Origin: Defluviitaleaceae bacterium
GTDB taxonomy: Bacteria; Bacillota; Clostridia; Lachnospirales; WQUN01
Reading direction: 5' to 3'
Assembly (NCBI GenBank): GCA_009781755.1
Contig: WQVD01000013.1
Span: 1-64,000, forward strand
Length of the DNA: 64,000 nt
Positions 8,497 to 59,364 of the stretch are shown one piece after another. The notes beneath the pieces are model-generated. The model was not told where the DNA came from, searched no databases, and saw only the letters and a list, made by a program, of their open reading frames with translations. How positions within the stretch are numbered: position 1 is the first letter of the stretch; the number at the start of each line of letters is the position of its first letter. A program made the translations under genes and the position numbers.

Positions 8497-9489
8497 ATGA
8501 CGCAGGAATACTTACTACAGGTAAGGAATTTACGTACCTCTTTCCGGATTGCCGGTACATACCATGCCGCTGTTGACGGCGTGAATCTGGACGTCAGTAA
8601 AAACGAAGTCCTCGCCTTGGTGGGCGAATCTGGCTGTGGCAAGTCTGCCATGGCGCTCTCTTTGACCCGTTTGCACAACATGAACTACACTTCTATTGAA
8701 GGCGAAATCTTTTTCAATGGCAATGATTTACTTTCCATGACCCTGCCCGAGTTAAACAAGGTGCGGGGCGGTCGTATTGGCATGATTTTTCAGGATTCAT
8801 TGACGGCGATGAATCCTCTTTCGCGTGTCGGCGCGCAAATTGAAGAGGTGCTGACTTATCACACGCAACTGTCCATGAGCGAGAAAAAGGAACGTGCGCT
8901 GGAATTGTTAAACAAAGTGGGCATCTTCAACCCCGCGCTTACTTATAACCAATTCCCGCACGAATTGTCCGGCGGTATGCGCCAACGCGCCATGATCGCC
9001 ACGGCCATCGCTTGCTCGCCCGACCTCATCATCGCGGACGAACCTACAACCGCGCTAGACGTTACCATTCAAGCACAAATCTTGGATCTACTGGACGATT
9101 TGCGCATGAACACCGGCGGCAGCATGATTCTCATCACCCATGACTTGGGCGTGGTGGCAGACATCGCCGATCGCGTAGCCGTCATGTACGCCGGTCAAAT
9201 CGTAGAAATCGCTACCGTCTACGACCTTTTTGAAAATCCGCTTCATCCTTATACGCGTTCGCTCATGCACTCCATGCCCAGCGCACTGTCCGAAGAGGCA
9301 CGGCTGCATACCATCCAAGGCATCGTGCCCAGCTTGCAAAACTTGCCGCGCACGGGTTGCCGCTTTGCCGAACGTATCCCTTGGCACCCCGCCACCATGC
9401 ACGAGGCCGAACCCACATACCACGAAGTAACACCCGGCCACTTTGTACTGTGCAACTGCTACAAAACATTTAATTTGGGGGGTGCGTAA
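8497..9489 (+). CDS. Oligopeptide/dipeptide ABC transporter ATPase, OppD/DppD type
   Basis: A 330-residue ABC ATPase that powers peptide import. Walker [13 protein letters not shown] loop [12 protein letters not shown], signature [12 protein letters not shown] and Walker [13 protein letters not shown] are intact, followed by the H-loop TTHD-type ITHDLGVV. The C-terminal oligopeptide-binding extension begins GCRFAERIP but lacks the later cysteine usual in OppD. The open frame extends to 8347, but homology starts at [16 protein letters not shown], hence ATG 8497. First gene of a five-gene operon; two bases separate it from the next ATPase. Confidence 0.93.
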
Positions 9490-9491
9490 CC

Positions 9492-10418
9492 ATGGCCATT
9501 CTTGAAGTCAAAGACCTAAAAGTCCACTTCCCCATCGCGGGCGGTATCCTTGGCCGCACCGTCGGTTATGTAAAAGCCGTGGACGGCGTCACCTTCTCCA
9601 TCAACGAAGGGGAAACCATCGGCTTGGTGGGCGAAAGCGGCTCCGGCAAATCTACCATCGGCAAGTCCATCCTCGGCCTGACCCACATCACATCGGGGCA
9701 AATCTTGTACAACGGGCAAGACATCACCCGCCAAGTACGCAAAAATCGCTCCCCCTACCGCAAGAGCGTGCAAATGATTTTCCAAGATGTATATTCGTCC
9801 CTCAACCCGCGCAAGCGCGTACTCGACATCATCGCAGAACCCCTGCGCAACTTCGAAAAATTCACCAAAGCCGAAGAACGCAAACGCGTGGACGAACTAC
9901 TTAGCATCGTAGGCCTGTCTCCCGACAATGCCAGCAAATACCCCTTCGAATTTAGTGGCGGGCAGCGTCAACGTATCGGCGTGGCGCGCGCCATTGCACT
10001 CAAACCCAAACTTATCGTTTGCGATGAGCCCGTATCGGCCCTTGACCTTTCCGTACAAGCCCAAGTCCTTAACCATCTCAAGGACATCCAAAAGGAATTG
10101 GGCATCGCCTACCTCTTCATTTCTCATGACTTAGGCGTCGTCCGCCATATGTGCGAAAACCTCGTCATCATGCACAACGCCCGCTTTGTAGAAGCCGGCA
10201 CCCGCGAGGATATCTACAATAATGCCACCCACATCTACACCCAACGCCTGATCGCCGCCATCCCCGACATCGACCCCCGCAAGCGCATTGCCCATGCGGA
10301 ATACCGCAAAGGCATCAACGAAAACTACGAGGCCAACCGCGACAAATTCTATCGGGACGGCTACCAAGTGTATGACCTAAAACCCATCAGCCCGACGCAC
10401 AGCGTCGCAATACCATAA
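9492..10418 (+). CDS. Oligopeptide/dipeptide ABC transporter ATPase, OppF/DppF type
   Basis: A 308-residue ABC ATPase pairing with the preceding subunit. Walker A GESGSGKSTIGKS, Q loop MIFQDVYSSLNPRKR, signature FSGGQRQRIGVARA and Walker B LIVCDEPVSALD are intact. The C-terminal tail (about residues 260-308) is charged and lacks the oligo_HPY cysteines found in many OppF proteins. Placed 2 bases after the OppD stop and 13 before the first permease, so part of the same operon. Confidence 0.93.
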   Translation: MAILEVKDLKVHFPIAGGILGRTVGYVKAVDGVTFSINEGETIGLVGESGSGKSTIGKSILGLTHITSGQILYNGQDITRQVRKNRSPYRKSVQMIFQDVYSSLNPRKRVLDIIAEPLRNFEKFTKAEERKRVDELLSIVGLSPDNASKYPFEFSGGQRQRIGVARAIALKPKLIVCDEPVSALDLSVQAQVLNHLKDIQKELGIAYLFISHDLGVVRHMCENLVIMHNARFVEAGTREDIYNNATHIYTQRLIAAIPDIDPRKRIAHAEYRKGINENYEANRDKFYRDGYQVYDLKPISPTHSVAIP

Positions 10419-10431
10419 AGGGGGAAGCGAT

Positions 10432-11397
10432 ATGTGGAAAACAGTTGTAAGACGTTTGCTCATCTTGATCCCCCAGTTGATTGCGTTGAGCTTGATTGTG
10501 TTCTTCCTAGCCTCTCTCATGCCGGGGGATGCACTGCGCGGGCAAGTCGAACCCGGCGCACCTCCGGGGGAGCTCATGCGCCTGCGGGAAGAAGCAGGAC
10601 TGCTCGACCCTTGGTACCAACAATATACCCGCTGGGTAAGCCACATTATGCGCGGTGACTTTGGCCGCAGCTTGCAACACCGCGTAGCCGTCACCACCGT
10701 CATCGGCGACAGTATGATGAACACCATACGCTTATCCATCATGACTACGATTTTCTTATACTTGATTGCCATACCCCTTGGGCTTATAGCCGGACGCAAG
10801 AACGGCAAGTGGATAGACAAAACCATCTTGATGTACGTGTTTATCTTCTTTAGTATACCCACCATTGTGTTGTCATTAATCATGGTTCTTGTTTTTGCCT
10901 TCAACTTGGGCTGGTTCCCTGCGATGAACTCCGTAAATCCTGTCGCAGCCGTTGCAGGCGGATGGACAGAATTTTGGAGCCGCATGTACCACTTGATTTT
11001 GCCGTCATTAACGGGTGCGCTCATAGGTGGCGTAGGCGTTATCTACTTCCTACGCAACCAAGTAATAGACGTGCAAAACGCCGACTTCATCACCACCGCC
11101 CGCGCAAAAGGCACGCCCGAACACCGTGTATACTCACACCATGTATTGCGCAATGCTTTGTTGCCCGTTGCAGGGGGCATAGGTGCCAGCATCGCAGCTG
11201 TATTTTCGGGTTCTTTCTTTATAGAAACCATATTTTCACTTAACGGCATGGGCACTTTGTTTCTTTCTTCAGTGCTGGGGCGCGATTGGCCTGTTGCTAT
11301 GGCACTCATCATGTTTTATGCCATCACAGGGGTTGTATCTATGTTACTGGCCGACATTACCATTATGTTGGTAGACCCACGTATTCGCATTAAATAA
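10432..11397 (+). CDS. Oligopeptide ABC transporter permease, OppB/DppB type
   Basis: A 321-residue permease with six predicted membrane helices. It opens with the GsiC/DppB pattern (RRLLILIPQLIALSLIVFFLASLMPGD) and carries the EAA-type cytoplasmic loop TTARAKGTPEHRVYSHHVLRNAL that docks on the ATPases, followed by FFIETIFSLNGMG. Ribosome site GGGGGAAG precedes ATG 10432. Forms a heterodimer with the next gene product. Confidence 0.93.
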   Translation: MWKTVVRRLLILIPQLIALSLIVFFLASLMPGDALRGQVEPGAPPGELMRLREEAGLLDPWYQQYTRWVSHIMRGDFGRSLQHRVAVTTVIGDSMMNTIRLSIMTTIFLYLIAIPLGLIAGRKNGKWIDKTILMYVFIFFSIPTIVLSLIMVLVFAFNLGWFPAMNSVNPVAAVAGGWTEFWSRMYHLILPSLTGALIGGVGVIYFLRNQVIDVQNADFITTARAKGTPEHRVYSHHVLRNALLPVAGGIGASIAAVFSGSFFIETIFSLNGMGTLFLSSVLGRDWPVAMALIMFYAITGVVSMLLADITIMLVDPRIRIK

Positions 11398-11410
11398 GGA
11401 GGCGCTGTAT

Positions 11411-12292
11411 ATGAATGAAAAAGTAAATCATGCAAGCGCATTCCGCTTGATGTGGCACGAAATCCGCAACGATTGGTTTGCACTCATCGGCCTGTTCTTG
11501 TTCATCACCATTGTGCTTGTGGTATATATTTTTGGTTATTTTGTTATTGACGAGGCAGCCGCAGGACGATTGAACATGTTTACCATGAATCAATCACCTC
11601 GTGCGGGCTTCCCGTTGGGCACGGATGATTTGGGGCGTTGCATGTTGCGCCAACTTATTTTGGCGGCGCGCAATTCTTTGAACATTGCGTTTACGGTTAC
11701 CCTCGGCGGAGCAACGATTGGCATCTTCATTGGGCTGCTCATGGGCTTCTATGGCGGCCATGTAGATAATGTAATGATGCGCATTATTGGTTTGTGGGGC
11801 ATGATTCCATTTTTGATGCTAATCATTGTTATCCGCACATTAATTGCGCCTCAAACTTGGTGGGGATTTTCGTTTATGATGATTGGGCTGGGCGGTTTTC
11901 TCATGATGTCGGGTATGATACGCGTCATGACCTTGCAGCAAGGACGGTTGGATTATGTATCCGCGTCAAAAACCATGGGTACGCCCAACGTTGTCATCAT
12001 GGTGCGCGAAGTATTGCCTAATTTGGTTTCTATCATTACCAGCGGCCTAACCCTTGCATTGGCGGGCAATATTGGGTTGGAAACGGGGCTTACCTTCCTA
12101 GGATTTGGCTTGCCGCCGGGTACCCCCAGCTTGGGGCAGCACCTTGGTTACGCCCGCGATTCTGTTGTATTGCAAAACCGCCAATGGCAATGGCTACCCG
12201 CCGCCATCCTTGTTTTCGTTTTAATGTTGTGCATCAACTTCGTGGGTCAAGCGCTTAACCGCGCTGCCGACGCACGCAAGCGGACTGTATAA
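11411..12292 (+). CDS. Oligopeptide ABC transporter permease, OppC/DppC type
   Basis: A 293-residue permease, six membrane helices. It has the OppC N-terminal helix (DWFALIGLFLFITIVLVVYI), then FPLGTDDLGRCMLRQLI, the family's LGTDxxGRD-like motif, and an EAA loop ending MVREVLPNL. Fourth gene of the operon, with GGAGGCG 8 bases before ATG 11411. Confidence 0.93.
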   Translation: MNEKVNHASAFRLMWHEIRNDWFALIGLFLFITIVLVVYIFGYFVIDEAAAGRLNMFTMNQSPRAGFPLGTDDLGRCMLRQLILAARNSLNIAFTVTLGGATIGIFIGLLMGFYGGHVDNVMMRIIGLWGMIPFLMLIIVIRTLIAPQTWWGFSFMMIGLGGFLMMSGMIRVMTLQQGRLDYVSASKTMGTPNVVIMVREVLPNLVSIITSGLTLALAGNIGLETGLTFLGFGLPPGTPSLGQHLGYARDSVVLQNRQWQWLPAAILVFVLMLCINFVGQALNRAADARKRTV

Positions 12293-12331
12293 ATCCAAAT
12301 ACAATATGACTCAAGAAAGGAAAGGTGTAAC

Positions 12332-14215
12332 ATGAAAAAATTGTTTCTATTATTGGCTGCAACAGCACTAGCGTTGGTTGCATTCACCGCTTGCCGCGGC
12401 GATGCGGATGAAACCGATCGCTTCCTCATCCCTGCTGGCCACCCGTTGGAAATGCTTGAGGATGCAATGACAAACTTCCCCATGTACGGCGACAACGGCT
12501 TGCCCCACGTAGCAGGTACGACATTTCAAATGGGATTAGCCCATACGACACCTTGGCAAGGCATCATTGGCGGCGGCGGTTTATTTAGCATGGCTGCCAT
12601 CGACACCGACGTTGCCGGAATCATCGGCACCACCGGCGGCCTCATTGCCATGAATGAATTTGAACAATTTGGCGAAGGCGGCATCGTTACCGTAGCCCAT
12701 GATATGGACGCACAAACCATTACCTTGACACAACATTACGATGTATTTTGGCATGACGGCGCACCTTTGACGTTGCATGATCTGTATTTTGCATTGCACA
12801 TCTTGGCGCACCCCGACCACCAAGGCCCACGTAATCACCGCACCGGCGACAACAGTGACATCGTAGGTATTTGGGAATACCACAACGGTGAAGCCGACAC
12901 CATTGAAGGCTTGGTACTGTCCAACAACAACCGTACATTAACCATTTACTTCAACGACTTTGCGCCCACCATTTTGTACTTTGGCATTTGGACCTCGCCT
13001 CTGCCGTATCACATCTTTGGCGCATACTATCCCGACAACGTAGCCGCTATGATTGACAGCCCCTTCATCCGTGAAACACCCATTGGCTTCGGCCCCTTTG
13101 AATTTGTACATTCCGAACCCGGCGAATCCTTCTTGCTGCGCCGCAACGAAAATTATGTATGGGGTGCTCCACACATTGAATACATTCTTATCCGCCGCAT
13201 CGACCCCCAGCAAATTGCCGAAGCCATGGTAGCAGGCGAGTTTGATAGCGTTGGCTTCCGAACTTTGGATTTTGAATACCATATGGATCCCACAAACTGG
13301 CGTTATTTTGGCTTCCCTGTACGCGCAACTCAAGGCCACTTTGCCTTCCGTATGGGCTGGTGGTGCTTCGATACCAACCAAAACGTACCACAAATGCTTA
13401 ACGACCCCAGTGACCCCAACAGCGGCTACCGCGTACACGACATGATGCGCCCTGAAGCCATCTATATCCGCCGCGCCATGGCACACGCCATCGACTGGCT
13501 CACAATTACGCAAATGCGCTACAACGGTTTGCAATTCCCCGCAGGTGCGTATATACCTGTACGCCACCGTCCACTGATGGACTTGACCGTACCCATGTTC
13601 CCCTTCGACCGCGAAGAATCCAACCGATTACTCGATGCCGGCGGATTCACCACCCGCGACAGCGAAGGCTACCGCACATGGCCCAATGGCGACCGCATGG
13701 AACTTATTTGGCTCATGATGGAAGGCCCCACAGCAGAATGGTATTACCAAGCCCACACCCAAGCATGGAGCGATATTGGTCTGCGTGTGTCCTTATTTGA
13801 AGATGGCTTCCATTCCAATTTCGTAGTATGGGATTTGATGGACTTTGATGACGATGGCGACCAAGTACACTTCTGGAGCGGCTCGTGGCAGCACGGCGCC
13901 AACCCCGCCAACAGCATGTGGAGCCGCGGCGAATTTGAAAATGCATCACGCCACAACAGCTATGAATTGGATGCCATCCTAGACCGCATCCAATCAAATG
14001 CCGCATGGGATATCGACTACCTCACCGATGCCATGAGCGAATTGCAATGGTATATGTACAATAACGTGTTCTACTTCCCCACCACATGGGGCGTTGGACT
14101 CACGGCCGTCAACAACCGCGTAGCCAACTGGGACACCCGCGCCGTCATGCAAGGCACCCGTGCATACGGCTGGCACACCATCCGCTTGACCGCAGCACAA
14201 CCCTACAGCGGTTAA
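12332..14215 (+). CDS. Oligopeptide ABC transporter substrate-binding lipoprotein (SBP family 5)
   Basis: A 627-residue extracellular peptide-binding lipoprotein. The signal peptide ends in the lipobox FTAC (cysteine about residue 21), so it is lipid-anchored. The body has the SBP_bac_5 features: QTITLTQHYDVFWHDGAPLT (the family's WxDGxPxTxxD block), ETPIGFGPFEFV (GTGPY-like) and a late RRAMAHAIDW. It is longer than typical OppA (about 540) owing to insertions. Fifth and last operon gene; AGAAAGGAAAGG precedes ATG 12332 and a terminator follows. Confidence 0.92.
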   Translation: MKKLFLLLAATALALVAFTACRGDADETDRFLIPAGHPLEMLEDAMTNFPMYGDNGLPHVAGTTFQMGLAHTTPWQGIIGGGGLFSMAAIDTDVAGIIGTTGGLIAMNEFEQFGEGGIVTVAHDMDAQTITLTQHYDVFWHDGAPLTLHDLYFALHILAHPDHQGPRNHRTGDNSDIVGIWEYHNGEADTIEGLVLSNNNRTLTIYFNDFAPTILYFGIWTSPLPYHIFGAYYPDNVAAMIDSPFIRETPIGFGPFEFVHSEPGESFLLRRNENYVWGAPHIEYILIRRIDPQQIAEAMVAGEFDSVGFRTLDFEYHMDPTNWRYFGFPVRATQGHFAFRMGWWCFDTNQNVPQMLNDPSDPNSGYRVHDMMRPEAIYIRRAMAHAIDWLTITQMRYNGLQFPAGAYIPVRHRPLMDLTVPMFPFDREESNRLLDAGGFTTRDSEGYRTWPNGDRMELIWLMMEGPTAEWYYQAHTQAWSDIGLRVSLFEDGFHSNFVVWDLMDFDDDGDQVHFWSGSWQHGANPANSMWSRGEFENASRHNSYELDAILDRIQSNAAWDIDYLTDAMSELQWYMYNNVFYFPTTWGVGLTAVNNRVANWDTRAVMQGTRAYGWHTIRLTAAQPYSG

Positions 14216-20599: not shown

Positions 20600-23209
20600 T
20601 CATTGCGTTAATAATTTTTGCGCGGCCAAGACGAGGAACATGTAATGCGACGACCCGCCACCCATGACGTATTCGACCTGCTGCCACAAATAAGGGAAGG
20701 TCAACAATTCCGGCAGGTCGGGGCGGATGAGAGCAGTGCCTGAGATAACCCCGCCGGGGATGTATGACCAATCCGCGCGGTTGAGCCCGTAGCCGACGGT
20801 GGCGGACTTTGCGCCCACGCCGCTTGCGAAGGACATCGAGTCAGGGCCGGGGTGACAGCCCAATACGAAGTTGAGCGCGTCAAAGACGCCTTCGGCCGGG
20901 AAGAGGTCGGGATGGGCGGTGTGCAGGAAGTAATGCTCGAAGCCCCCGCGTTGTATCCCCCACCCCGCGCCCCAAATGTGCGGGCGATACGGGATGCCGT
21001 AGGGGGTTTCTTTTGATTCGGCGAGCAGGCGGTCGGCTAGGGTGTGCAGGGCTGCATCGATTTTTTGGGAAAAAGATTGATACACACCGGACATATGCGC
21101 AGTATTATCCGCATGCAACGCGGAATCATTTGTTTGCATGTATTGATTTGCGCGGGCAATATACCATGCGGGGTTGTTGTGGGTATTGGCGGCAATGGCA
21201 CGGGCAATGAAGTCAGCATGATCAAGTAAAAATGCTTGATACGCTGTTTCACCGGTGGTAATCAGTAATTCTGCTGCTGCATGCAGCTTGGCTAGGGTTA
21301 CGGCGGTGCGGCCGTTTTGGCCTTCTTCGTTAAGAATGACGGCGGGGTTGATGGCCATGTAGATGTCACGGGCAATTTTGAGGGCGCGTCTTGCCAGCTT
21401 GTTATTGAAGCCGGTCAACACGCGGGCGGCGGCGGCCAATTGGGCTGCCGTTGTAAGTTCGCGCCGAGGGTTATTTTCTGTGAAAACCCAGCGGTCGTCT
21501 GATGTGCCTTTAATGTTGTCGGTCATGACGGCACTGTCGCCCAAATGTACATATTGGCGCAAGTCGCGCTCGATGATACCGCGCCAATGCCGCCCCACCG
21601 CGCGGATGGCGTTGACCACGCACAATGTACCGTGTTCCACTTGCTGGAGCAGGTCGGGTTTGCCATCGGGCTGGTGGATTTCTACGGTTTTGGTAGCTTG
21701 GCAAATGGTAGTGGCGTCGTAGTCGATGCCGAAGGCTTCATAGGTGAGGGCCAAAATGTAAGTTTCGCCGGCTTGCGACTCTACACGCAGGTCAAAGTCG
21801 CCCGCGTCGTGCCAGCCACCCGCGTCCAAACCGGGTACAAGGTCGCCGGGTTTATATTTGCACAGCGACTTGGGCCCCTGCGTGTATCCGTCGATATGGT
21901 TGTAATCCAGCGGCGCGAATTGTGCATCGTCCACATGGCACAAACCATGCCACACGCGGTATTTTTCGCTAACGCGCATGTGGCACATTTGCACAGGCAG
22001 GAAATATTCCAACACCGGCTGCCATACGCCGCGGTCATACACATCCGCCGCAATGGCGAAAACCGATGACTCCGATTTGCCGTAGCGGATTTTGTACAGC
22101 CCCGGTTCACGGATGTGGCTGAAGTCGAATTTTTCGTATTGGTAGCGCAGGAAAGCGCCCCATTTTTCGGCCTTGCCGGTGTAGGCCACGGCTTCGCCAT
22201 CGTGGGTGATTTTGTACAGGATGGGGTATTGGCTGCCGTCCGTGGTACCGCGCTCGATGACGGCGATTTTGGGTTGCGCGGGGTGATAACCGACCTGCGA
22301 AATTTGTATCGCGGGTGCGTATTCCCAGTCCTGCGCCACACGCGGGGTAATAACCCATTCAATGGCGCGGGTGGTGGCACCGGCAGGGATTTCGCTGCTT
22401 AGCACGAACCAGCCGTTGTTGTGGTTCATGCGGCCATCGTACAGTTTGATATCCGCGTTCAGTGCTTCAACCGTCAAGCAATTGTGCTTGTCATCCGGGC
22501 AGACGGTAAATTTGCGACCTACGGCATACGGCGCGGCAATCAAATTGTCCGCCGTCATGGGGTTGTACGCGGTTTTGGGGTTGCGCGCCATCATGGGTTG
22601 GTAGGCCGCCAACTCACAGGATGCGGCGGTCAAATCGGCCACGCTGGCCCGCGCATCGGGCAGCGCGAAGTCACCCACATGCGTATGGTTGGACGGCAAC
22701 GCCAGCGTAGGCCCGTTGGGCTGCATCGGGAAAACACCCCCGCGCTCGTCCATCAACCAAGGCTTGCCAAACAATGCCCCGGGAAATAATTCCAAATTAA
22801 AACACAGCTTGCCCAAAAATCGCTTCGGTACGGGTTTGGACAAATCCACCGTCACGCGTACTGCATCGCCATCCGCTCGCACGGTTACGGTGTAATCAAA
22901 TTCAAAATCGGGATAAATCATGGGGTTGAAACCGCGCAAATGCCGCTCACGGTCGGGGTAGGATAATTGTGTGGTGATGGTGTTGGCGGCTTCGTCCAAT
23001 ACGCGCGCGCCCTGCTTGGACGCGGGCTGCCACTGACCGGGTGTTTGCTCGAACCGCACATCGCCGTTGGTGGCCAAGCGGTTGCCGTGCATTACGATGC
23101 TGATCCCGGACTGATGCCCCTCGGGGTAGATGTCGTCAAACGCCATCACGTCTACGCCGCTGTTTTTAAAGTAGCCCAAATCCTTTTGCAGGTTGAATTT
23201 GCTTGACAT
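20600..23209 (-). CDS. Glycoside hydrolase family 9 protein, apparently cytoplasmic
   Basis: An 869-residue protein. The first ~290 residues resemble a beta-sandwich module; residues about 300-390 are the Ig-like CelD_N module (IQISQVGYHPAQPKIAVI); from about 400 on is the GH9 (alpha/alpha)6 domain with GGWHDAGDF at 465-472, the nucleophile-activating aspartates, and NFVLGCHPGPDSMSF near the end; the acid glutamate is probably in LWQQVEYVMG. GH9 enzymes hydrolyse beta-glucans or oligosaccharides. No signal peptide is present after the AGGAGGCG-preceded ATG 23209, so imported oligosaccharides are the likely substrate. Lies in an operon with an SLC13 carrier and a four-cysteine protein. Confidence 0.85.
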   Translation of the reverse strand: MSSKFNLQKDLGYFKNSGVDVMAFDDIYPEGHQSGISIVMHGNRLATNGDVRFEQTPGQWQPASKQGARVLDEAANTITTQLSYPDRERHLRGFNPMIYPDFEFDYTVTVRADGDAVRVTVDLSKPVPKRFLGKLCFNLELFPGALFGKPWLMDERGGVFPMQPNGPTLALPSNHTHVGDFALPDARASVADLTAASCELAAYQPMMARNPKTAYNPMTADNLIAAPYAVGRKFTVCPDDKHNCLTVEALNADIKLYDGRMNHNNGWFVLSSEIPAGATTRAIEWVITPRVAQDWEYAPAIQISQVGYHPAQPKIAVIERGTTDGSQYPILYKITHDGEAVAYTGKAEKWGAFLRYQYEKFDFSHIREPGLYKIRYGKSESSVFAIAADVYDRGVWQPVLEYFLPVQMCHMRVSEKYRVWHGLCHVDDAQFAPLDYNHIDGYTQGPKSLCKYKPGDLVPGLDAGGWHDAGDFDLRVESQAGETYILALTYEAFGIDYDATTICQATKTVEIHQPDGKPDLLQQVEHGTLCVVNAIRAVGRHWRGIIERDLRQYVHLGDSAVMTDNIKGTSDDRWVFTENNPRRELTTAAQLAAAARVLTGFNNKLARRALKIARDIYMAINPAVILNEEGQNGRTAVTLAKLHAAAELLITTGETAYQAFLLDHADFIARAIAANTHNNPAWYIARANQYMQTNDSALHADNTAHMSGVYQSFSQKIDAALHTLADRLLAESKETPYGIPYRPHIWGAGWGIQRGGFEHYFLHTAHPDLFPAEGVFDALNFVLGCHPGPDSMSFASGVGAKSATVGYGLNRADWSYIPGGVISGTALIRPDLPELLTFPYLWQQVEYVMGGGSSHYMFLVLAAQKLLTQ

Positions 23210-23220
23210 ATAAACGCCTC

Positions 23221-23774
23221 CTATGTATTGGATTGTTCCGTGTGCGCTTTGAATTCTTCGGCAATTAACCCCTTTACCGACTGCCATTCATCGGCGGTAA
23301 GATTGGCAAACACATCACCGCCGTAGGTGCATGCGTTGTACGCGGTGCCATCCAGTGTGTATTTGACTTGTTGGACGCAAGTTGCACTGCATGCCGTGCA
23401 GATCTTGATGTTTGTTAGCACGTTTTTGACGGCGTCGGGGCAGGCTTGCGCGACTTGTCTGTATTGGTCGATATTCAGAAATTTGGGCTTAACGGCGAAG
23501 GTGGCTGTTGCTTCGTTTTCCACGACAATGATTTTGAATACGAAGATGCTGCGCACGGACGGTTTTTTGGCGGAGTAAATGATGTCGTAGTTGGTTTTGG
23601 TATTGGCGGCGTTACGACGGATGTTGCTGAAGCCGATTTTCATGCCCCAATCCATGGCCAAGGCGTGTAATTCGTCAGCTGTTTTTTGTCCTCGTTGGAA
23701 AACAGGGGGAAGAGTTCTTCTATTTTGGCTAACACATCGGCCATTTTGTTGATGACGGTGGGCAACTTTGTCAT
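23221..23774 (-). pseudogene. Four-cysteine module protein split by a frameshift
   Basis: ATG 23774 with an excellent GGAGGAATCG site opens a 44-codon frame ending at 23640; a different frame from about 23690 to 23221 encodes the rest. Joining them at the A6 run (23682-23687 as T6 on the plus strand) with one extra base gives a continuous ~184-residue protein. Its C-terminal part carries CTACSATC, then YTLDGTAYNAC and NLTADEW, the four-cysteine module also seen at 45073, 60345 and 60864. Either a mutated gene, a sequence error, or slippage on the A run. Sits between the SLC13 gene and the GH9 gene with 12-18 base gaps. Confidence 0.7.
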
Positions 23775-23792
23775 TTTCGATTCCTCCGGGAA

Positions 23793-25085
23793 TTATAAAT
23801 TCAAAACCAGTGGGAACAGCAGCACTACTAATATATAAGCCAAGATGTTATACAGCCCGCCCATCTTGATGTAGTCCTTGAAGCGATACCCCCCCGCCAG
23901 CGCCATGGTCATGGGCGGGGTGGACATGGGTGTAGCGTAGCCGATGCTGGATGCGATGGCCACCGCCATGGCCACGCTGCGCACGTCGTACCCCAATTCA
24001 ATGGCGGTTAAAACGCCGATGGGCACCAACAATGCCGCGCAGGCCGTGCTGGACATGAAGTTGGTCAAAATTACGGCAATCAACGCCAGTACAGCGCACA
24101 ATAACCATGGAGAAATGGCATCGCCCAACAACGCAACGGTGTTTTGCGCAATCATTTCACCCGCGCCGCTTTGGTTGAGCCCGGCGGCAAATCCGAAGGA
24201 GCAACCAAAGATGATGACCGTCGTCCAATCCATTTTGGCGAAGGCTTTTTTTTGCGTGATGCAGCCTGTGGCGATGCAAATAGCCGCGCCCAACATGGCG
24301 ATGACCCCCGGTGACCAAATTTCAAAGATGAAAGCAATGACGCAGAAAATTAAAACCGCGACGGATATAGCCATGCGGAAGGTTTGCAAGGGGGTGTAAC
24401 GGGTAGGTGGTTCTTCGGATTGTGGTGTGCTAGTGGGCGGGGCGATTTCCGTTACTTCTTCAAATTCGAAGGCTTTTTTTTGCAAGCGGTAGCCAATGGT
24501 CAAGGAATACACCAGCAACAACGCAAACAGCGGCAAACCAAACATGCCGATATCGAAGAAGCCCATCGTCTGGTGGCCGCCGTCGATGAGGGCTTGTTGT
24601 GCGATGAGTTGCGGCGGGCTGGACACAAGGGTCAAGCCGCCGCCCGTTACTGCGGCCATGCCTACAATCATGTAAGTATTTTTTTTGGTTAATTTGCCAT
24701 TGCTGGCACTGATGGATGATGCGGCTAAGGGCAGCATGATGGCCGCCGTGGCCGTGTTGGACAGGAATGCCGAAATGGGTATCGCTACTAAAATCAATAC
24801 CGCAATGAACGTTTTTTCGTTGGTGCCCACCAGCGAAATAATCGCCTTACCCATGCGCGGTGCTGCGCCTGTTTCGAACAGGGCATTGCCCACCGTAATC
24901 ATCCCCGCCATCAAAAAAACGATGTCATTCCCAAACCCCGCAAACGCCGTGGTAAAGGGAATAACACCGAATATCGCCATCGCAAGGCAAGCCAAAATCG
25001 ACGTGGTCGCCAGCGGAATGTACTCCGATATGAACAATATCATCATGATGCCGATAATGACGAGTGCGATGGTACTGGGTTCCAC
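23793..25085 (-). CDS. SLC13/DASS family carrier (dicarboxylate or related anion symporter)
   Basis: A 430-residue polytopic protein with about 12 helices. Two repeated substrate-site motifs of the family are visible: SAFLSNTATAAIMLPLA near residue 110 and LTNFMSSTACAALLVPIG near 345, each an SNT/SST hairpin, plus YATPMSTPPMTM. Family members usually couple sodium or protons to uptake of di- or tricarboxylates or sulfate; the exact substrate cannot be told. Start is GTG 25085 with AAGGGG upstream (an ATG further up is out of frame). First gene of the minus-strand operon and divergent from the tubulin-like gene. Confidence 0.88.
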   Translation of the reverse strand: MEPSTIALVIIGIMMILFISEYIPLATTSILACLAMAIFGVIPFTTAFAGFGNDIVFLMAGMITVGNALFETGAAPRMGKAIISLVGTNEKTFIAVLILVAIPISAFLSNTATAAIMLPLAASSISASNGKLTKKNTYMIVGMAAVTGGGLTLVSSPPQLIAQQALIDGGHQTMGFFDIGMFGLPLFALLLVYSLTIGYRLQKKAFEFEEVTEIAPPTSTPQSEEPPTRYTPLQTFRMAISVAVLIFCVIAFIFEIWSPGVIAMLGAAICIATGCITQKKAFAKMDWTTVIIFGCSFGFAAGLNQSGAGEMIAQNTVALLGDAISPWLLCAVLALIAVILTNFMSSTACAALLVPIGVLTAIELGYDVRSVAMAVAIASSIGYATPMSTPPMTMALAGGYRFKDYIKMGGLYNILAYILVVLLFPLVLNL

Positions 25086-25195
25086 TTGGCTCAGCCCCTT
25101 GACCCCATGAATTTTATTCGTGTTTGTCCCATCATATCACCCCCATCCACATTCATACAATATTAATGAAGTCATTCGATACGGGAGGACAAACC

Positions 25196-28100
25196 ATGCA
25201 ATTGGAAACTATTAACCATCCCATTCTCATCATCGGCTTGGGCGGCACGGGTACGGACGCGTTGCTGCGGGTCAAGGCGCAGGCAAGGCGCCGCTTTGCC
25301 ATTAACGGCCAACTGCCCGAAAATATCGCTTTTTTGGCCATCGAGTCCAACAAGCACGACAAAAAAAATTATCAGGGTACGACATTGGACGCCAACGAAT
25401 TGGTGCTGCTGGCCAATGCATCCATTGGATCGATTTTGAATAATCGATCTACATTGCCGTCGTACATCAGTGAATGGTTGTCTCCTGAATTGACGATCAG
25501 CGACGGCATGAAGGGTGCAAGCGGCAACCGCCAAGCCGGGCGGCTGTTGCTGTTCGAGAAGATCAACACGGTCATTGACGCGGTGGATGCGAAGATTCGC
25601 AAGCTGCGCATCCAGCAGGAGAATAAATTGCTGGTGTTTATCCTGACGGGGGTATCGGGCGGCACGGGCGGAGGGATTTTCTTAGATATTCCGTACATTG
25701 TGCGCGGTTTGATGGAGCGCGATTATGGCAAAAAGGGTATCGACCGGGTGGAAATAAATGGATATTTTTTCACGCCGGACGTGCATATTGCGGGCAACGC
25801 GTTGAATATCCACAGCGAAGAATATATCCAGCGCAACGGGTATGCGGCATTGAAGGAATTGGATTATTGGATGAATATTGAAGAACGCGCGGGTGAATTT
25901 TTTACGCAGCAGTACGGTACGCGGTTGCAAGTGCGTTCGGCGTTGCCGCCATATAACTTGTGCCACTTGGTGTGCGCCACCAACATCGACGGCGTGTACC
26001 TGCGCGACGCGTACCCCCATTGCTTGGAAATCACGTCGGAAAACATCATCGACTTTCTGGCGCGCGAGGAGAAAACCGACGAGCGCGAATTCGCCATCCA
26101 CGACTATCAGAGCAATTTGCTGGCCAACATTGCCACCATGAAGAGCAACCTGCCTGCCGAGGCGCATCACAGCGCCAACTATATTTACAACATCATGGGC
26201 GCGGCGGCGGTGTCGCTGCCCATAACCGATGCGGAGGAAGAATTATTGCATCGCTTGCTGGATGAATTGGATCCGATTTTCGATGCGATGCCTGATGCGC
26301 AGGATTTGAAGGATTTAACCCAAGCCACCGGACTGGCGCAGGAATTTTTTGCCGTTGAAATGAAGTCCAAATTGCCGCTCATGCAGTTGGGTGCTGCGCA
26401 GACGGATTATTTCAACTTCGCCAATGTAGTTAAAACGCAGCGCATCAGCGCCGATGCCAAATTGAATGATTTGCTGATGCAAACCAAATATGTGCTGGGT
26501 AACAGCAAACAAGCCGCCGCCGCGCTGTTTGAAAAAGTAAAAACCGCGTTGACACAAGCCGTCGCATCCACGCAGCAAGGCCCGATTTTCGCTGCGCGGT
26601 TGCTGGAGAGTACGACCAATCCTTGCTTGCTGGCGTGGTTGGAGAACACAACGCAACAGCTTCAAGAGAAGCAACAACGCGCCAACGAAGAAATCGAGAT
26701 GTTAATGATAACCGCGGCGACACGCTTTGAAGAAGCGCAAAACGCAGGAATTTTCTCGCGCGAGCGCAAGAAGAATGCTTATTTGCAAGCCAAGGTCGAT
26801 GAATATCAGGCGCGGAGCCAATCGGTATGTGACGCGTGGCGTATTGATGTGTACAAAGCCGTCCACCCCGCGCTGGAACAATTGCACCGCAGTTTTTACG
26901 CGCCACGCGCTGCTGCTTTGCACGACATGAAGCAAACCACCGACGCAACCCGACACGACCGCAGCCCATCCCACCCGCCGAGCACAAGCTTCATCTCCAT
27001 CCATGAAATTCTGGCCGAAGCGAGCAAATTTGATGAAGAGCAAAATAAAAACGCGCGCATTCGTGCCTTTTTGCAACACATTGCGGATTGTGATGCGGCG
27101 CACATAAAAGCGCATTGCGCTTCATTTATACGCGCATATTACAACACCGTTTTGACGCGGCCGATGGATGATTATATCGCCGATGAAGCGCACGTTATTC
27201 AACTGGTGACGCGGCTCAACCGCGAGGCCTTGCCCGTTTTCCACTTGGACAATGCGGCCAATATGTATGTTTTCCCGGGGTACAGCGTAGTGAGCGTGCC
27301 GCACAACGCCCCCCGCGTACAGCGCGCGGTAGAGAAATTCCGCGAGAATTTTACGTCGGGGCAGCGGTTTAATCTACGGCACAGCAGCATCACCGACCGT
27401 ATTTTTTGGCTCAATACGCAGAACGGACTGCCACTGTTCGCCTACACGCCACTGCGCGTGTATGAAGCGCTGTACGAGCAGACGCTGGGCACAAAAGAAA
27501 GCGTCGGCAGACATTTTTGGCCAAATCTCCCCTCTCCCCTGCCTGAAACCGTGTGGGGCGATACGTACACCAACACGCGGCAAAAAGCCGAGAACGACCG
27601 CATCCGCGCGGTGTTTAATGAAGCGATGGCGCTGGGTGTGATTGAATTGGTGGGGAATCGCTACGTGGTGAAGGTTCATAGAGAATCAGTTGGTGGCAAT
27701 TTGCCACCAACCGGTTTTGGCGCTTCGCAATTGTACGTCGGCAACGACCGCGCCCAAGCGATGGCATTCTTTGCACGATATCCGCGGCTGGTTGCCCTCG
27801 TTTCGGCGGAGAATGACAAGCGCAACGCCATCCAAAACGCCCGCGTCGCATTGGAAAAACACCAACAATCCCAAACCGACGAAAAAATCCTCATCGACGA
27901 ACTCGTAACCGCGCTCAGCGGCGAAGCCATCATCCGCCAAAACGAACAATTCATTTACAACCAACCTCCCGGCGAAACCCGCCGCCCACCACTGACACGC
28001 ATCCTCGACCACCCCGATCACCCCGAATACGCGCTATTCCGCGCCTACCAATCTCTTTCGGAAAGCAACAAACAAAGCATTCGCGACCGCGCAGTCAAAC

Positions 28101-28312
28101 TGCGCAGCAACTTCCCCGACGGCAGGCTGCTGGAAAATTTGAAAAGCTGGAAATCCGCGTTTTTATCTCGCAAAAGTGCGCTGGAAGCGGATGCGGACGC
28201 CGCGGATGCAAACATCACAGACGCAAACGCCACGGATACGCATGCAGCCGCACGCAATTTTTATCACGCGGCAATCAAACGCTTTGACGCGTACATCGCG
28301 GCGTTAAAATAA
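25196..28312 (+). CDS. Tubulin/FtsZ-superfamily protein (Tubulin_2, PF13809-like), large
   Basis: A 1038-residue protein. Residues 1-350 form a tubulin-type GTPase: the first nucleotide loop is LIIGLGGTGTDALLRVK (11-27) and the GTP signature is GVSGGTGGG (152-160), matching the GGGTGxG motif of FtsZ and tubulin. The middle (about 480-720) is rich in helix and Q/K/E-rich coiled-coil segments; the C-terminal third is unlike anything I recognise. No membrane segment or signal. GGGAGG lies 8 bases before ATG 25196, so the longer frame from 25124 is not used. A copy of the GTTGGTGGCAA palindrome sits in frame at 27689. One base separates it from the next gene, its likely partner. Role unknown: filament formation is expected from the fold only. 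Confidence 0.85.
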   Translation: MQLETINHPILIIGLGGTGTDALLRVKAQARRRFAINGQLPENIAFLAIESNKHDKKNYQGTTLDANELVLLANASIGSILNNRSTLPSYISEWLSPELTISDGMKGASGNRQAGRLLLFEKINTVIDAVDAKIRKLRIQQENKLLVFILTGVSGGTGGGIFLDIPYIVRGLMERDYGKKGIDRVEINGYFFTPDVHIAGNALNIHSEEYIQRNGYAALKELDYWMNIEERAGEFFTQQYGTRLQVRSALPPYNLCHLVCATNIDGVYLRDAYPHCLEITSENIIDFLAREEKTDEREFAIHDYQSNLLANIATMKSNLPAEAHHSANYIYNIMGAAAVSLPITDAEEELLHRLLDELDPIFDAMPDAQDLKDLTQATGLAQEFFAVEMKSKLPLMQLGAAQTDYFNFANVVKTQRISADAKLNDLLMQTKYVLGNSKQAAAALFEKVKTALTQAVASTQQGPIFAARLLESTTNPCLLAWLENTTQQLQEKQQRANEEIEMLMITAATRFEEAQNAGIFSRERKKNAYLQAKVDEYQARSQSVCDAWRIDVYKAVHPALEQLHRSFYAPRAAALHDMKQTTDATRHDRSPSHPPSTSFISIHEILAEASKFDEEQNKNARIRAFLQHIADCDAAHIKAHCASFIRAYYNTVLTRPMDDYIADEAHVIQLVTRLNREALPVFHLDNAANMYVFPGYSVVSVPHNAPRVQRAVEKFRENFTSGQRFNLRHSSITDRIFWLNTQNGLPLFAYTPLRVYEALYEQTLGTKESVGRHFWPNLPSPLPETVWGDTYTNTRQKAENDRIRAVFNEAMALGVIELVGNRYVVKVHRESVGGNLPPTGFGASQLYVGNDRAQAMAFFARYPRLVALVSAENDKRNAIQNARVALEKHQQSQTDEKILIDELVTALSGEAIIRQNEQFIYNQPPGETRRPPLTRILDHPDHPEYALFRAYQSLSESNKQSIRDRAVKLRSNFPDGRLLENLKSWKSAFLSRKSALEADADAADANITDANATDTHAAARNFYHAAIKRFDAYIAALK
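27689..27711. repeat. GTTGGTGGCAA palindrome, copy 3, inside the tubulin-like gene
   Basis: GTTGGTGGCAA-T-TTGCCACCAAC, identical to the 7037-7059 core, read through in frame as VGGNLPPT. An intragenic insertion of a dispersed repeat, or RNA structure within the message. Confidence 0.75.
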
Positions 28313-28313
28313 T

Positions 28314-29540
28314 ATGCATCCGGTTGTATTTATTTTTGCCACAGATGAAAATACGCCCCTGCCCGCACCGAATGTCATGGGTTACAAGCCTCCCATGACA
28401 TTCAATTTAATAACGGCAGTTAAAAACCGTGCCGCCGAAACGCTGGAAGCGGGGCGTTCGTTTTTTTTGCAATGGAACAACACCGGCGAAACGATGCCCG
28501 CCCGCGTGCAAGCATTAAAAGCGCAGATATTGCAATCCGAAACGCTGACCGACTTGCATGAATTGCACTTGATTGTCATGGCAAACGCCGAAAACGCGCC
28601 ATCGGGCTTGCTGCGTGGCATCAGCGAATTGCGCGCTTCATTTGAAGCGGATTTTTCGCTGGTGCGCGTGGTACTGTGCGTGTCCATTAGCGAATCTCCG
28701 CTGTTTCCCGCACGGGTTGAAAAAGCACGCGCGTTCATCGCCGCGTTCAACGACTTAATAACACGCAGCCCCGCGCCCTGCCCCGTGTGCCTGTTAAGCA
28801 ACCGCAACGAGTTTAATGCCATCCGAGCCGCGCACGACTTGCAAATGGCCGATATCATCGTGCGGTTGCCGTGGGTATTCAGTTGGCTTCCATTTGGGGC
28901 CAACCGGAACGCAACCTCCCATGCCGCAGACACACCGTTGCTTTTTACCGCAGGCATTTCACTATCGCCCAACAACGACCCACCCGCGCTCCCCAATAAG
29001 CACCTCTCGTCCGAAACGATCATTGCTTATTTGCAAAGCGTACCGTTTTCGCCTGCGGGCATTTTTCGTTTGCGTAAATTAACGCTTGCGCAGGCGGAGA
29101 CCGTATTGTTCAGAGACACCCTATTTCGCGCGTTCAACCAATTTTGTTCTGTGAGCGAATCCACTGCGGAGAAAAACAGCCTCTTGTTTGCGCAGCGGGT
29201 TTCGGCTTGGCGTGTTGCGGGGGTGATTGACCAATTGGCGCGTGCGTATGCGTTGCAATACCGCTTGGCACACCGCGGCGGAGTTGACCACCACGGTACA
29301 CATGTCGATGATACGCTACCGCCGTCGCCGCTCCCCGCATTATTATTGTCCTTCATCCGCCGCGATGGCATGCAGGAAGAAACCATCACGCCATCGCAAG
29401 GTGAAACGCTTTCCCAAGGGGTGACGTCTTCACCGAACGTGACGCTTCGCATCGCATGGGGCTTCTCAATCGAGTCTTTGGCGCTTATGAATTACACGCA
29501 ACGGGAATCTCCTTGCGGGCTTGCAACCACGCACTTATAA
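28314..29540 (+). CDS. Unknown protein co-encoded with the tubulin-like protein
   Basis: A 408-residue soluble protein with no signal peptide or membrane helix. Alternating hydrophobic strands and helices (VVFIFATDEN at the start, LHELHLIVMAN, LVRVVLCVSISES, CPVCLLSN, ADIIVRL) suggest a Rossmann-like alpha/beta core, then a helical region, then a low-complexity TP/SQG tail. I do not recognise the family. Its ATG is 2 bases after the tubulin-like stop, so they are translationally coupled and probably act together. The rpsB promoter lies within its last codons. Confidence 0.75.
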   Translation: MHPVVFIFATDENTPLPAPNVMGYKPPMTFNLITAVKNRAAETLEAGRSFFLQWNNTGETMPARVQALKAQILQSETLTDLHELHLIVMANAENAPSGLLRGISELRASFEADFSLVRVVLCVSISESPLFPARVEKARAFIAAFNDLITRSPAPCPVCLLSNRNEFNAIRAAHDLQMADIIVRLPWVFSWLPFGANRNATSHAADTPLLFTAGISLSPNNDPPALPNKHLSSETIIAYLQSVPFSPAGIFRLRKLTLAQAETVLFRDTLFRAFNQFCSVSESTAEKNSLLFAQRVSAWRVAGVIDQLARAYALQYRLAHRGGVDHHGTHVDDTLPPSPLPALLLSFIRRDGMQEETITPSQGETLSQGVTSSPNVTLRIAWGFSIESLALMNYTQRESPCGLATTHL

Positions 29541-56979: not shown

Positions 56980-59364
56980 ATGGGTTCCATCATGCTCAAC
57001 CGGCATAAAAAAGGGCAACGCGCCAATGCTTCTGCGCAGTCGTCTGCGGCCAAGGCATCATCGGCGTCACTAACGCGTCGCGATGTGGGTACGGTGGTGG
57101 TGGGCGCCGGGGGGTTTTTTATTGGGCGTGCCGTTGTTTTTGGATTTGTTAATCCGCTGGCGTTGCCTTTTTTGGCGGCGTTTATGGGAGCGCGGGCTTT
57201 TTATTTGACGGCGTTGCTTACGGTGTTGGGTATGGCCACGCGGTTGGGGGATTTTTATACGCTGCGGTATATGGCGGCGGTGGGGTTACTTTGCGGGTAT
57301 TATTTTGTGGCCACGCGGGTGGCGGGGAATAACCGTTCGTGGTTGACATTGCCGTATGTGGCGGTGGCTACGGGGGTGGCCATGATGCTGTCGGGGATGG
57401 CTTTTGCGGCGCTGTATGGCGATGGGTCGTTCTTATATGTAGTGGCGGGGTTGGAAGCGGTGCTGGCAGGTGGTATGACGCTGGTCATCAAGCGGGGGCA
57501 CGCAGTGTTGACGGGCAAGCGGCGGCGGATGCTGTCGGGCGAGGACGTGCTGGCCATTACGATTATATTGGCCGGCGTGGTGGCGGGCGCGTCTGAAATA
57601 TATGTGGGCGCCATGCCGCTGCGGTTTTTCTTTTGCGTGTATATTTTGTGCTTGGTGGCTTATAAAGGCGGAGCGGGGTTTGCGGCTTCGGCGGGTATGT
57701 TGCTGGGCGTTTTTTTGTATTTGGCGGGGCATTGGGAAGCGGGAACGGCGGCGGCGTTGTCGTTGGCGGGTATGGGGGGCGGGTTTGCCAAACGGTGGGG
57801 GCGCATCGGGGTGATTTTGGGTGTGGCAATCAGCGGGGTATTGGCATTGTATCTGCTGGCGCGGCCGTTGTTGGCGTTTTCGCTGGTGTATTCGGTGATT
57901 GCGGCGGGGTTGGCGTTTGTGCTTACGCCGCAGGGCTTCTATTTTAATGTAGCGTCGGCCATCAGCCCCGTGTTGGACAACGCCGACGATTACATGGACA
58001 AAATAAAGGAAGAAACCACGCGCCGCTTGAACGCTTTCGCGCTGGCGTTTCAAAAATTGGCAGACACGTTTTCCGGTCTTTCCAAGCCCAAGCACAGCTT
58101 GAACAAGCACGATATTTCACAAATGGTGGATGAATTGACCGCTCGTGTATGCGCCACTTGCCCGCGCCACCGCACTTGTTGGGAAGAAGATTTGTACGCC
58201 ACGCATCAGCGGGTATTTGCATTGCTGGGCGCATGCGCAGAGAACGGCGAAGCCACCGTAGACGACCTCGAACTCCCCTTCCGCAAGGTGTGCAACAAAC
58301 ACATCCAATGGCTGGCAGAGCTCAACGCCATCTTCCACCTGTTCAAAAACGACTTGCGCTGGCACAACCGCATCGCCGAAAGCCGCGAGCTCGTGAGCCA
58401 GCAACTGCACGGCGTAGCGGGCATCGTACAATGCCTGAGCGACGAAATCGACATTTCGCTCAAGTTTCACGAGGGGTTGGAAGAGGAAATGATCCTGGCC
58501 CTACTCCGCAACCGCATCGACGTAACCAGCGTCATCGTGCTGGAAAATAAAGAAGGCCGCTACCGCGTATCCGTCGGCCACCGCGCCTGCTACGGCAAAC
58601 ACGCATGCAAAAACGAAATCCTGCCCGTGCTCAACGGCATACTCAAACGCAAGATGCGTCCCGAATCCGCCGAATGCGAAAAAATCAACGATGCCTGCAC
58701 CACCCGATACATCGAAGACCAAAAAATGCGCGTAACCACCGGCGTAGCCAAAACCGCAAAATCCGCCCGCAGCTCCGGCGACAGCTATTCCTTCATGGAA
58801 ATGAAAAACGGCACCGCCCTACTGGCCCTGTCCGACGGCATGGGCAGTGGCGAACGCGCCCGCCGCGAAAGTGAAGCCACCGTAGGGCTGCTGGAAGATT
58901 TCATCGATTCGGGCTTTGACAAAGAACTGGCGGTGCGCATGATCAATTCCGTGCTGGTGCTCAAATCCGCCGAGGAATCCTTCGCCACGCTGGACATTTG
59001 CTCCATCGACTTATACACCGGCGAGGCAGAATTTATCAAAATCGGCGCGGCATCCACTTTTTTATTGCGCAACGGCAAGGTGCGGGTCATCCGTTCGTCA
59101 TCCTTACCCATCGGCATGCTCAACGATGTAGACCTCGAAACCTCCACCCACCACCTGCACCACGACGACATCATCGTCATGGTAACCGACGGCATCATCC
59201 CCGACATCGAGCGCGAAAATCAACTTGCCGAAGCCCTCCAACGCTGCCGCTACCGCAACCCGCAAGACATCGCCGACTTCATCTTAACCGAATCCGAAGC
59301 CGACCCGGACGCACCCAGAGACGACAAGACCGTGCTGGTAGCGCGGGTTTGGGAACGGGTGTAA
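56980..59364 (+). CDS. spoIIE: Stage II sporulation protein E (membrane PP2C-type phosphatase)
   Basis: A 794-residue SpoIIE, the serine phosphatase that dephosphorylates SpoIIAA and so activates sigma-F in the forespore. About ten hydrophobic segments fill residues 45-320; a central region carries the conserved RVCATCPRHRTCWEE cysteines; the PP2C domain from about 585 has LALSDGMGSGERARRES with metal aspartates, GAASTFLLRNG and VTDGI. Length is close to the usual 800. The start ATG 56980 is near GGGGG in an inverted repeat. Confidence 0.96.
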   Translation: MGSIMLNRHKKGQRANASAQSSAAKASSASLTRRDVGTVVVGAGGFFIGRAVVFGFVNPLALPFLAAFMGARAFYLTALLTVLGMATRLGDFYTLRYMAAVGLLCGYYFVATRVAGNNRSWLTLPYVAVATGVAMMLSGMAFAALYGDGSFLYVVAGLEAVLAGGMTLVIKRGHAVLTGKRRRMLSGEDVLAITIILAGVVAGASEIYVGAMPLRFFFCVYILCLVAYKGGAGFAASAGMLLGVFLYLAGHWEAGTAAALSLAGMGGGFAKRWGRIGVILGVAISGVLALYLLARPLLAFSLVYSVIAAGLAFVLTPQGFYFNVASAISPVLDNADDYMDKIKEETTRRLNAFALAFQKLADTFSGLSKPKHSLNKHDISQMVDELTARVCATCPRHRTCWEEDLYATHQRVFALLGACAENGEATVDDLELPFRKVCNKHIQWLAELNAIFHLFKNDLRWHNRIAESRELVSQQLHGVAGIVQCLSDEIDISLKFHEGLEEEMILALLRNRIDVTSVIVLENKEGRYRVSVGHRACYGKHACKNEILPVLNGILKRKMRPESAECEKINDACTTRYIEDQKMRVTTGVAKTAKSARSSGDSYSFMEMKNGTALLALSDGMGSGERARRESEATVGLLEDFIDSGFDKELAVRMINSVLVLKSAEESFATLDICSIDLYTGEAEFIKIGAASTFLLRNGKVRVIRSSSLPIGMLNDVDLETSTHHLHHDDIIVMVTDGIIPDIERENQLAEALQRCRYRNPQDIADFILTESEADPDAPRDDKTVLVARVWERV

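Follow-up and report, generated by a model that had tools for sequence, protein, structure and literature searches.

The Tubulin Gene and Its Surroundings

The window, which is the whole 64,000-nucleotide stretch of DNA analyzed here, carries two adjoining genes on its plus strand. The first, TubA (25196..28312, + strand), encodes a protein of 1038 aa that was assigned to the FtsZl1/Tubulin_2 family by Pfam (PF13809), by the AlphaFold model of its N-domain and by the gene tree, and the second (28314..29540, + strand) encodes a partner of 408 aa. A Shine-Dalgarno sequence, GGGAGGA (25183..25189, + strand), can be read directly 6 nt upstream of the TubA start codon (ATG, 25196), and the start codon of the partner (ATG, 28314) lies one base past the TubA stop (TAA, 28310–28312; T, 28313). 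The first-pass annotation had paired the two genes on the basis of this one-base spacing, and partner homologs indeed occupy the same place in the other genomes of the genus (4/4). Both open reading frames are real genes, as indicated by the ribosome-binding site, both tubulin loops, the Tubulin_2 match and a codon-position GC similar to that of the neighboring genes.

Upstream of the pair, positions 20600–25085 encode a glycosyl hydrolase family 9 protein with a CelD_N domain (895 aa) and a CitMHS-type transporter (23793–25085), the latter being found near TubA in sister genomes as well (L034, L035). Further downstream, the gene for the stage II sporulation protein E (SpoIIE, 794 aa, 56980–59364) suggests a sporulating organism or ancestry. 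In the sigma-70 and terminator scans, the number of matches was little higher than expected from shuffled sequence, and no matches were obtained in Rfam. One promoter-like match (10/12, 28284–28313) spans the TubA stop and the partner start, and it is probably due to chance because the whole scan was only modestly above the shuffled expectation.

TubA is almost certainly a member of the tubulin superfamily, as the first-pass annotation had proposed. The Tubulin_2 family PF13809 matches residues 11–356 far beyond chance (E 4e-60, score 204 against a cut-off of 27), and the N-domain model matched CetZ, tubulin and FtsZ chains in the fold search (Z 14–16, up to 15.8). Both nucleotide loops that had been read from the sequence are present, T1 as GLGGTGTD (residues 14–21, 25235..25258, + strand) and T4 as GVSGGTGGG (residues 152–160, 25649..25675, + strand); their positions are conserved across 43 homologs, all of which keep GGTG twice (43/43). 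Compared with the FtsZl1 signature GGGTG(S/T)G, the TubA motif SGGTGGG contains the core GGTGxG, with G at the S/T position and S at the first G, and the T4 loop of the Bacilli homologs reads SGGTGSG. A PDB sequence search gave no matches for TubA, and NCBIfam and PADLOC returned nothing for either TubA or the partner.

The remainder of the protein follows the plan of its family. The predicted coiled-coil middle is borne out by the AlphaFold model, in which residues 478–588 (26627..26959, + strand) form two long helices (478–515 and 522–588) at high confidence (pLDDT mostly 85–93). The C-terminal third (residues 698–1038, 27287..28309, + strand) is a mixture of strands and helices and had been called novel, which the family alignments (A3, A5) contradict, as the region is conserved throughout the family and is not peculiar to TubA. 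Residues 667–790 were modeled with low confidence, and the whole model has a mean pLDDT of 71.7 and a pTM of 0.39. The protein had also been considered outsized relative to FtsZ. However, the FtsZl1 family combines an FtsZ-like N-domain, an extended coiled coil and a mostly helical C-terminal domain (Makarova and Koonin, 2010; PMC2875224), and with this architecture 1038 aa is a normal length. One element of the family is missing, an N-terminal tail of about 24 residues (consensus hIxQLDxSLGGG) that occurs in nearly all relatives; since the Shine-Dalgarno sequence supports ATG 25196 as the start codon, this tail is absent from the window TubA.

Relatives of TubA and the Seven-Gene Operon

Sixty-one genomes were searched for TubA, and 29 of them gave TubA-like matches. 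Most matches belong to two types, the type A orthologs, with 48–60% identity, and the type B paralogs, with about 33%. The type B genes (L049–L062) lie in a compact operon, in the order vWA, tubulin, partner-like protein of 600 aa, 210-aa protein and GTPase (Pfam VWA and DO-GTPase2), which is present in many relatives and was not found in the window genome, where only the type A tubulin was detected. In the relative G017, two Tubulin_2 genes stand in tandem (L067:4474-11202; 1202 and 1033 aa). In the tree, the window TubA groups with the orthologs of its own genus (support 100), while the genome G007 forms the deepest type A branch and the Bacilli form the sister group (support 99).

A search of genome contigs yielded 66 loci in Bacilli, from Paenibacillus, Saccharibacillus, Brevibacillus, Cytobacillus and others. 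The partner gene is directly downstream of the tubulin gene in all of them (66/66), and the order vWA, tubulin, partner, vWA2, small protein, DO-GTPase and GAP1 is kept in each of the 63 loci that lie complete within a contig (63/63). All seven genes recur in that order in G007 (L045/L097), which has a membrane protein in addition. This operon is the Firmicutes GAP1-N2 system, for which two tubulin-domain genes with coiled coils, two vWA genes, a DO-GTPase, GAP1 and an FNIII-repeat component have been described (Kaur et al., 2020; PMC7159879).

The partner can be followed along a chain of homologs from the window protein (408 aa) to its sisters (381–395 aa, 27–32% identity), from a sister to the 643-aa protein of G007 (E 6e-24), and finally to proteins of about 800 aa in Bacilli (E 1e-33). 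What remains in the short forms is an N-terminal stretch of ~330 residues together with a C-terminal piece; the central helices are gone. Judged from these comparisons of sequence, the partner is a shortened, fast-evolving form of the 640–890 aa protein encoded downstream of the same tubulin gene in Bacilli.

Dispersal and Reduction in the Window Genome

In the window genome, four further parts are grouped on another contig (C31, L069). The first gene (9149–9748) encodes a small protein of 199 aa, which is conserved in gene order and a candidate for the FNIII-repeat slot, although it has no Pfam match. It is followed by the DO-GTPase (G000:C31:9730-11019; profile E 6.6e-103), whose sequence carries two CxxC pairs (Zn-ribbon) and shares 70% identity with its L045 counterpart, a protein matching PF19993. 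The GAP1-N2 protein (about 10988–12052) matches PF20013 above its cut-off (E 3.6e-6), and the membrane protein gene (12074–12919) completes the group.

The vWA proteins of the system have another fate. In the sister genomes (L079, L080), the type A vWA gene is flanked by rho and a methyltransferase gene. These two genes are direct neighbors in the window genome, with about 150 bases between them, and the vWA site is empty (L091:7571-9971). An assembly gap was considered as the cause and rejected for this site, the two genes being contiguous well inside a 287-kb contig. Elsewhere in the genome, no match to a type A or system vWA was obtained at E ≤ 1e-5, nor at E ≤ 1 with the vWA of a sister as the query; two unrelated vWA proteins exist. 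As the window genome and its relatives are draft MAGs, a gene that was not found may still exist, except at the vWA site.

The window lineage also shows signs of faster evolution. The TubA branch is long (0.81, against 0.13–0.31 in the sisters), and the partner is only 31–32% identical to its sisters, compared with 54–55% for TubA. The loss of the vWA, the loss of the N-terminal tail and the faster evolution may belong together, in a single lineage. All of this could be a sign of decay instead of a reduced form that still works, the pair having lost its job with the membrane vWA parts and now drifting. However, the two frames run open for 1446 codons, TubA retains its two GTP loops intact and the ribosome-binding site is good, and the frames of the GTPase, GAP1 and the small protein are likewise open. 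These features speak against simple decay in the window lineage, and a decaying remnant is, on balance, an unlikely description of the locus.

A Probable Degenerate Tubulin Fold in the Partner

The first-pass annotation could name no family for the partner, and no profile library names it in the window genome either. The protein itself has no Pfam match, and its profile gave only chance-level matches, mostly to helical proteins, in a PDB sequence search. Nevertheless, a degenerate relative of tubulin itself is strongly suggested. The partner profile gave a colinear match to the mixed Tubulin_2 profile (probability 95, E 2.7e-8), while nothing was matched among the vWA, GTPase and reversed controls; the match to the narrower A5 profile was weaker (probability 39, E 3e-4). 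The Pfam family Tubulin_2 touches 23 of the 42 partner homologs (best 1.5e-5).

Structure predictions, which had been suggested for both proteins, point in the same direction. Within the partner model, residues 1–195 (28314..28898, + strand) form a well-predicted core of alternating strands and helices (pLDDT mostly 80–94), the confidence of the whole model being moderate (mean pLDDT 64.7). In VIA, chains of the tubulin superfamily fill nearly all leading rows (Z up to 11.5 over 226 residues, rmsd 4.5), and the best unrelated row, with Z 10.2 over 154 residues, is not far below them. In Foldseek, FtsZ came first with a probability of 0.99.

The partner might instead be a Rossmann-like adaptor that has no kinship with tubulin. 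The Foldseek E-values are weak even for the leading FtsZ match (best 2.8e-3) and other Rossmann-like folds are among the matches, and the type B counterpart set (c3), which matches the partner with E 1.5e-13, reaches Tubulin_2 directly with E 0.0057 only. Against such an adaptor stand the colinear profile match with its clean controls, the Tubulin_2 matches among the homologs, the tubulins leading the VIA rows over ~226 residues, and the two tubulin-domain genes that Kaur et al. (2020; PMC7159879) described in the Firmicutes systems, so that it appears quite improbable.

The paired GGTG loops, kept in every TubA homolog (43/43), are kept in none of the partner homologs (0/42). On the alignments and models together, the partner is thus very probably a pseudo-tubulin, with a degenerate tubulin fold that lacks the GTP-binding T1 and T4 loops.

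The Pair as a Likely Part of a Larger System

How far the partner and the GTPase follow TubA was examined in 17 TubA genomes. A matching DO-GTPase is present in 16 of them (16/17) and the partner in 14 (14/17), adjacent to TubA in six and elsewhere in eight, whereas it was not found in three (G005, G016 and G035). The two genes adjoin in all five genomes of the window's genus (5/5) and in G007. TubA and the partner are encoded apart from each other in g2 and g8, two genera in which the partner has 408–514 aa; a lone tubulin in these genera, as first suggested by a single-sequence search, was dropped when the profile search located the partner elsewhere. The first-pass annotation had named conservation of the gene pair as a check, and a partner encoded elsewhere in most genomes as counting against its reading. 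Adjacency is seen in the genus, in G007 and in the Bacilli loci (66/66), and it does not extend to the eight of 17 genomes with the partner elsewhere. Its retention together with TubA in 14/17 genomes still argues for a functional link. When scattered genes are retained in this way, a shared function is well supported, although the genomes are drafts from one family and are not phylogenetically independent. The genome G005 (L041), which is 96% complete, keeps TubA, and neither the partner nor the DO-GTPase was found in it.

A two-component GTPase or filament system had been considered plausible in the first-pass annotation; as a free-standing system, TubA and the 408-aa protein would act without DO-GTPase, GAP1 and vWA. 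The two genes are adjacent and coupled in the genus, and the vWA parts are missing from the window genome, as such a system would have it. However, the ancestral gene order unites all parts in one operon, the window genome has the matching DO-GTPase/GAP1 cluster and the GTPase accompanies TubA nearly throughout, while the case of G005 indicates that the two genes need not occur together; a self-sufficient pair is decidedly improbable. The pair is best seen as one half of a known system that is reduced and split here, and it comprises two genes of a scattered seven-gene set.

That TubA could be a cell-division FtsZ or a phage/plasmid TubZ-type segregation tubulin has next to no probability, since nothing beyond the superfamily is shared, a separate FtsZ is encoded elsewhere in the genome (G000:C11:42068-42550, PF00091 E 2.2e-51), and the pair lies among chromosomal housekeeping genes, none of its neighbors being a gene for replication or partition or a phage gene.

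We therefore consider it likely that a catalytic FtsZl1-type tubulin and a loop-less pseudo-tubulin are two subunits of the Firmicutes GAP1-N2/DO-GTPase/tubulin/vWA system, the ancestral seven-gene operon of which was broken up in this family. GTP-binding TubA would polymerize, and the pseudo-tubulin would join or cap the polymer as a non-hydrolyzing subunit. The Zn-ribbon DO-GTPase together with GAP1, encoded on C31, may serve as the switch. In relatives, the membrane vWA proteins would tie the scaffold to the envelope, where it might either remodel membrane and surface structures or contain an invader. The window genome would represent a reduced form, with no vWA parts, a shortened partner and a TubA without the conserved N-terminal tail. 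We infer a GTP-driven, envelope-linked scaffold as the function and lean toward it, while the published readings as membrane remodeling (Makarova and Koonin, 2010; PMC2875224) and as an anti-invader conflict system (Kaur et al., 2020; PMC7159879) compete.

A bolder proposal, which we hold tentatively and think the less likely outcome, is a new kind of tubulin heteropolymer, in which a large GTP-binding tubulin assembles only with a nucleotide-free pseudo-tubulin, is switched in trans by DO-GTPase/GAP1, and works in the window organism without membrane vWA anchors. The dispersal of the operon in one family suggests that tubulin, pseudo-tubulin and DO-GTPase tend to remain together and that vWA can be lost, and this can guide reconstitution; the intact operon is present in culturable Paenibacillus and Brevibacillus.

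Comparison With Known Systems

FtsZl1, which corresponds to Pfam Tubulin_2 (PF13809), resembles TubA in its FtsZ-like GTPase N-domain, coiled coil, large C-terminal region and length of ~1000–1200 aa, and in its coexistence with a normal FtsZ. Genes of this family are often beside vWA, GTPase and kinase genes (PMC2875224). In contrast, no vWA, kinase or OmpA gene adjoins the window TubA, and the N-terminal tail that its nearest relatives conserve is absent from it. The vWA and GTPase operon context does not occur at TubA within the window and is met in L045 and the Bacilli; it is a common trait of FtsZl1, neither universal nor family-defining.

Four parts of the GAP1-N2 systems described by Kaur et al. 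(2020; PMC7159879) occur in the window genome: a tubulin, a protein related to tubulin, GAP1-N2 and a DO-GTPase whose CxxC motifs are paired (Zn-ribbon). The genome differs in that these parts are split over at least two loci, that no system vWA proteins were detected where the described form has two, and that the second tubulin, at 408 aa, has neither the central helical region nor the GTP loops. Two tubulin-domain genes in Firmicutes operons were already known from that work; new here are the loss of the GTP loops by the second tubulin and the finding that, in the window's family, this protein has become shorter and has moved.

In Synechocystis, Sll0445 is a Tubulin_2 protein like TubA. Its mutants are impaired in phototaxis, and it is reported to form complexes with proteins of pilus assembly and of the photosystems (PMC9880817). 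The cyanobacterial cluster contains FtsA-like and DivIC-like proteins, and no pseudo-tubulin partner was reported in it (PMC9880817). Our literature search returned functional data on Tubulin_2 for Sll0445 only, and experimental work on the Firmicutes systems was not found.

FtsZl1 tubulins are widespread, and recognizing the constant downstream neighbor as a probable pseudo-tubulin makes the heterodimer a testable question. In BtubA/BtubB and in alpha/beta-tubulin, two unlike tubulin subunits are made together and form heterodimers in which both subunits bind nucleotide. The window pair, whose assembly is predicted, would differ from both in that one of its two subunits is without the nucleotide loops.
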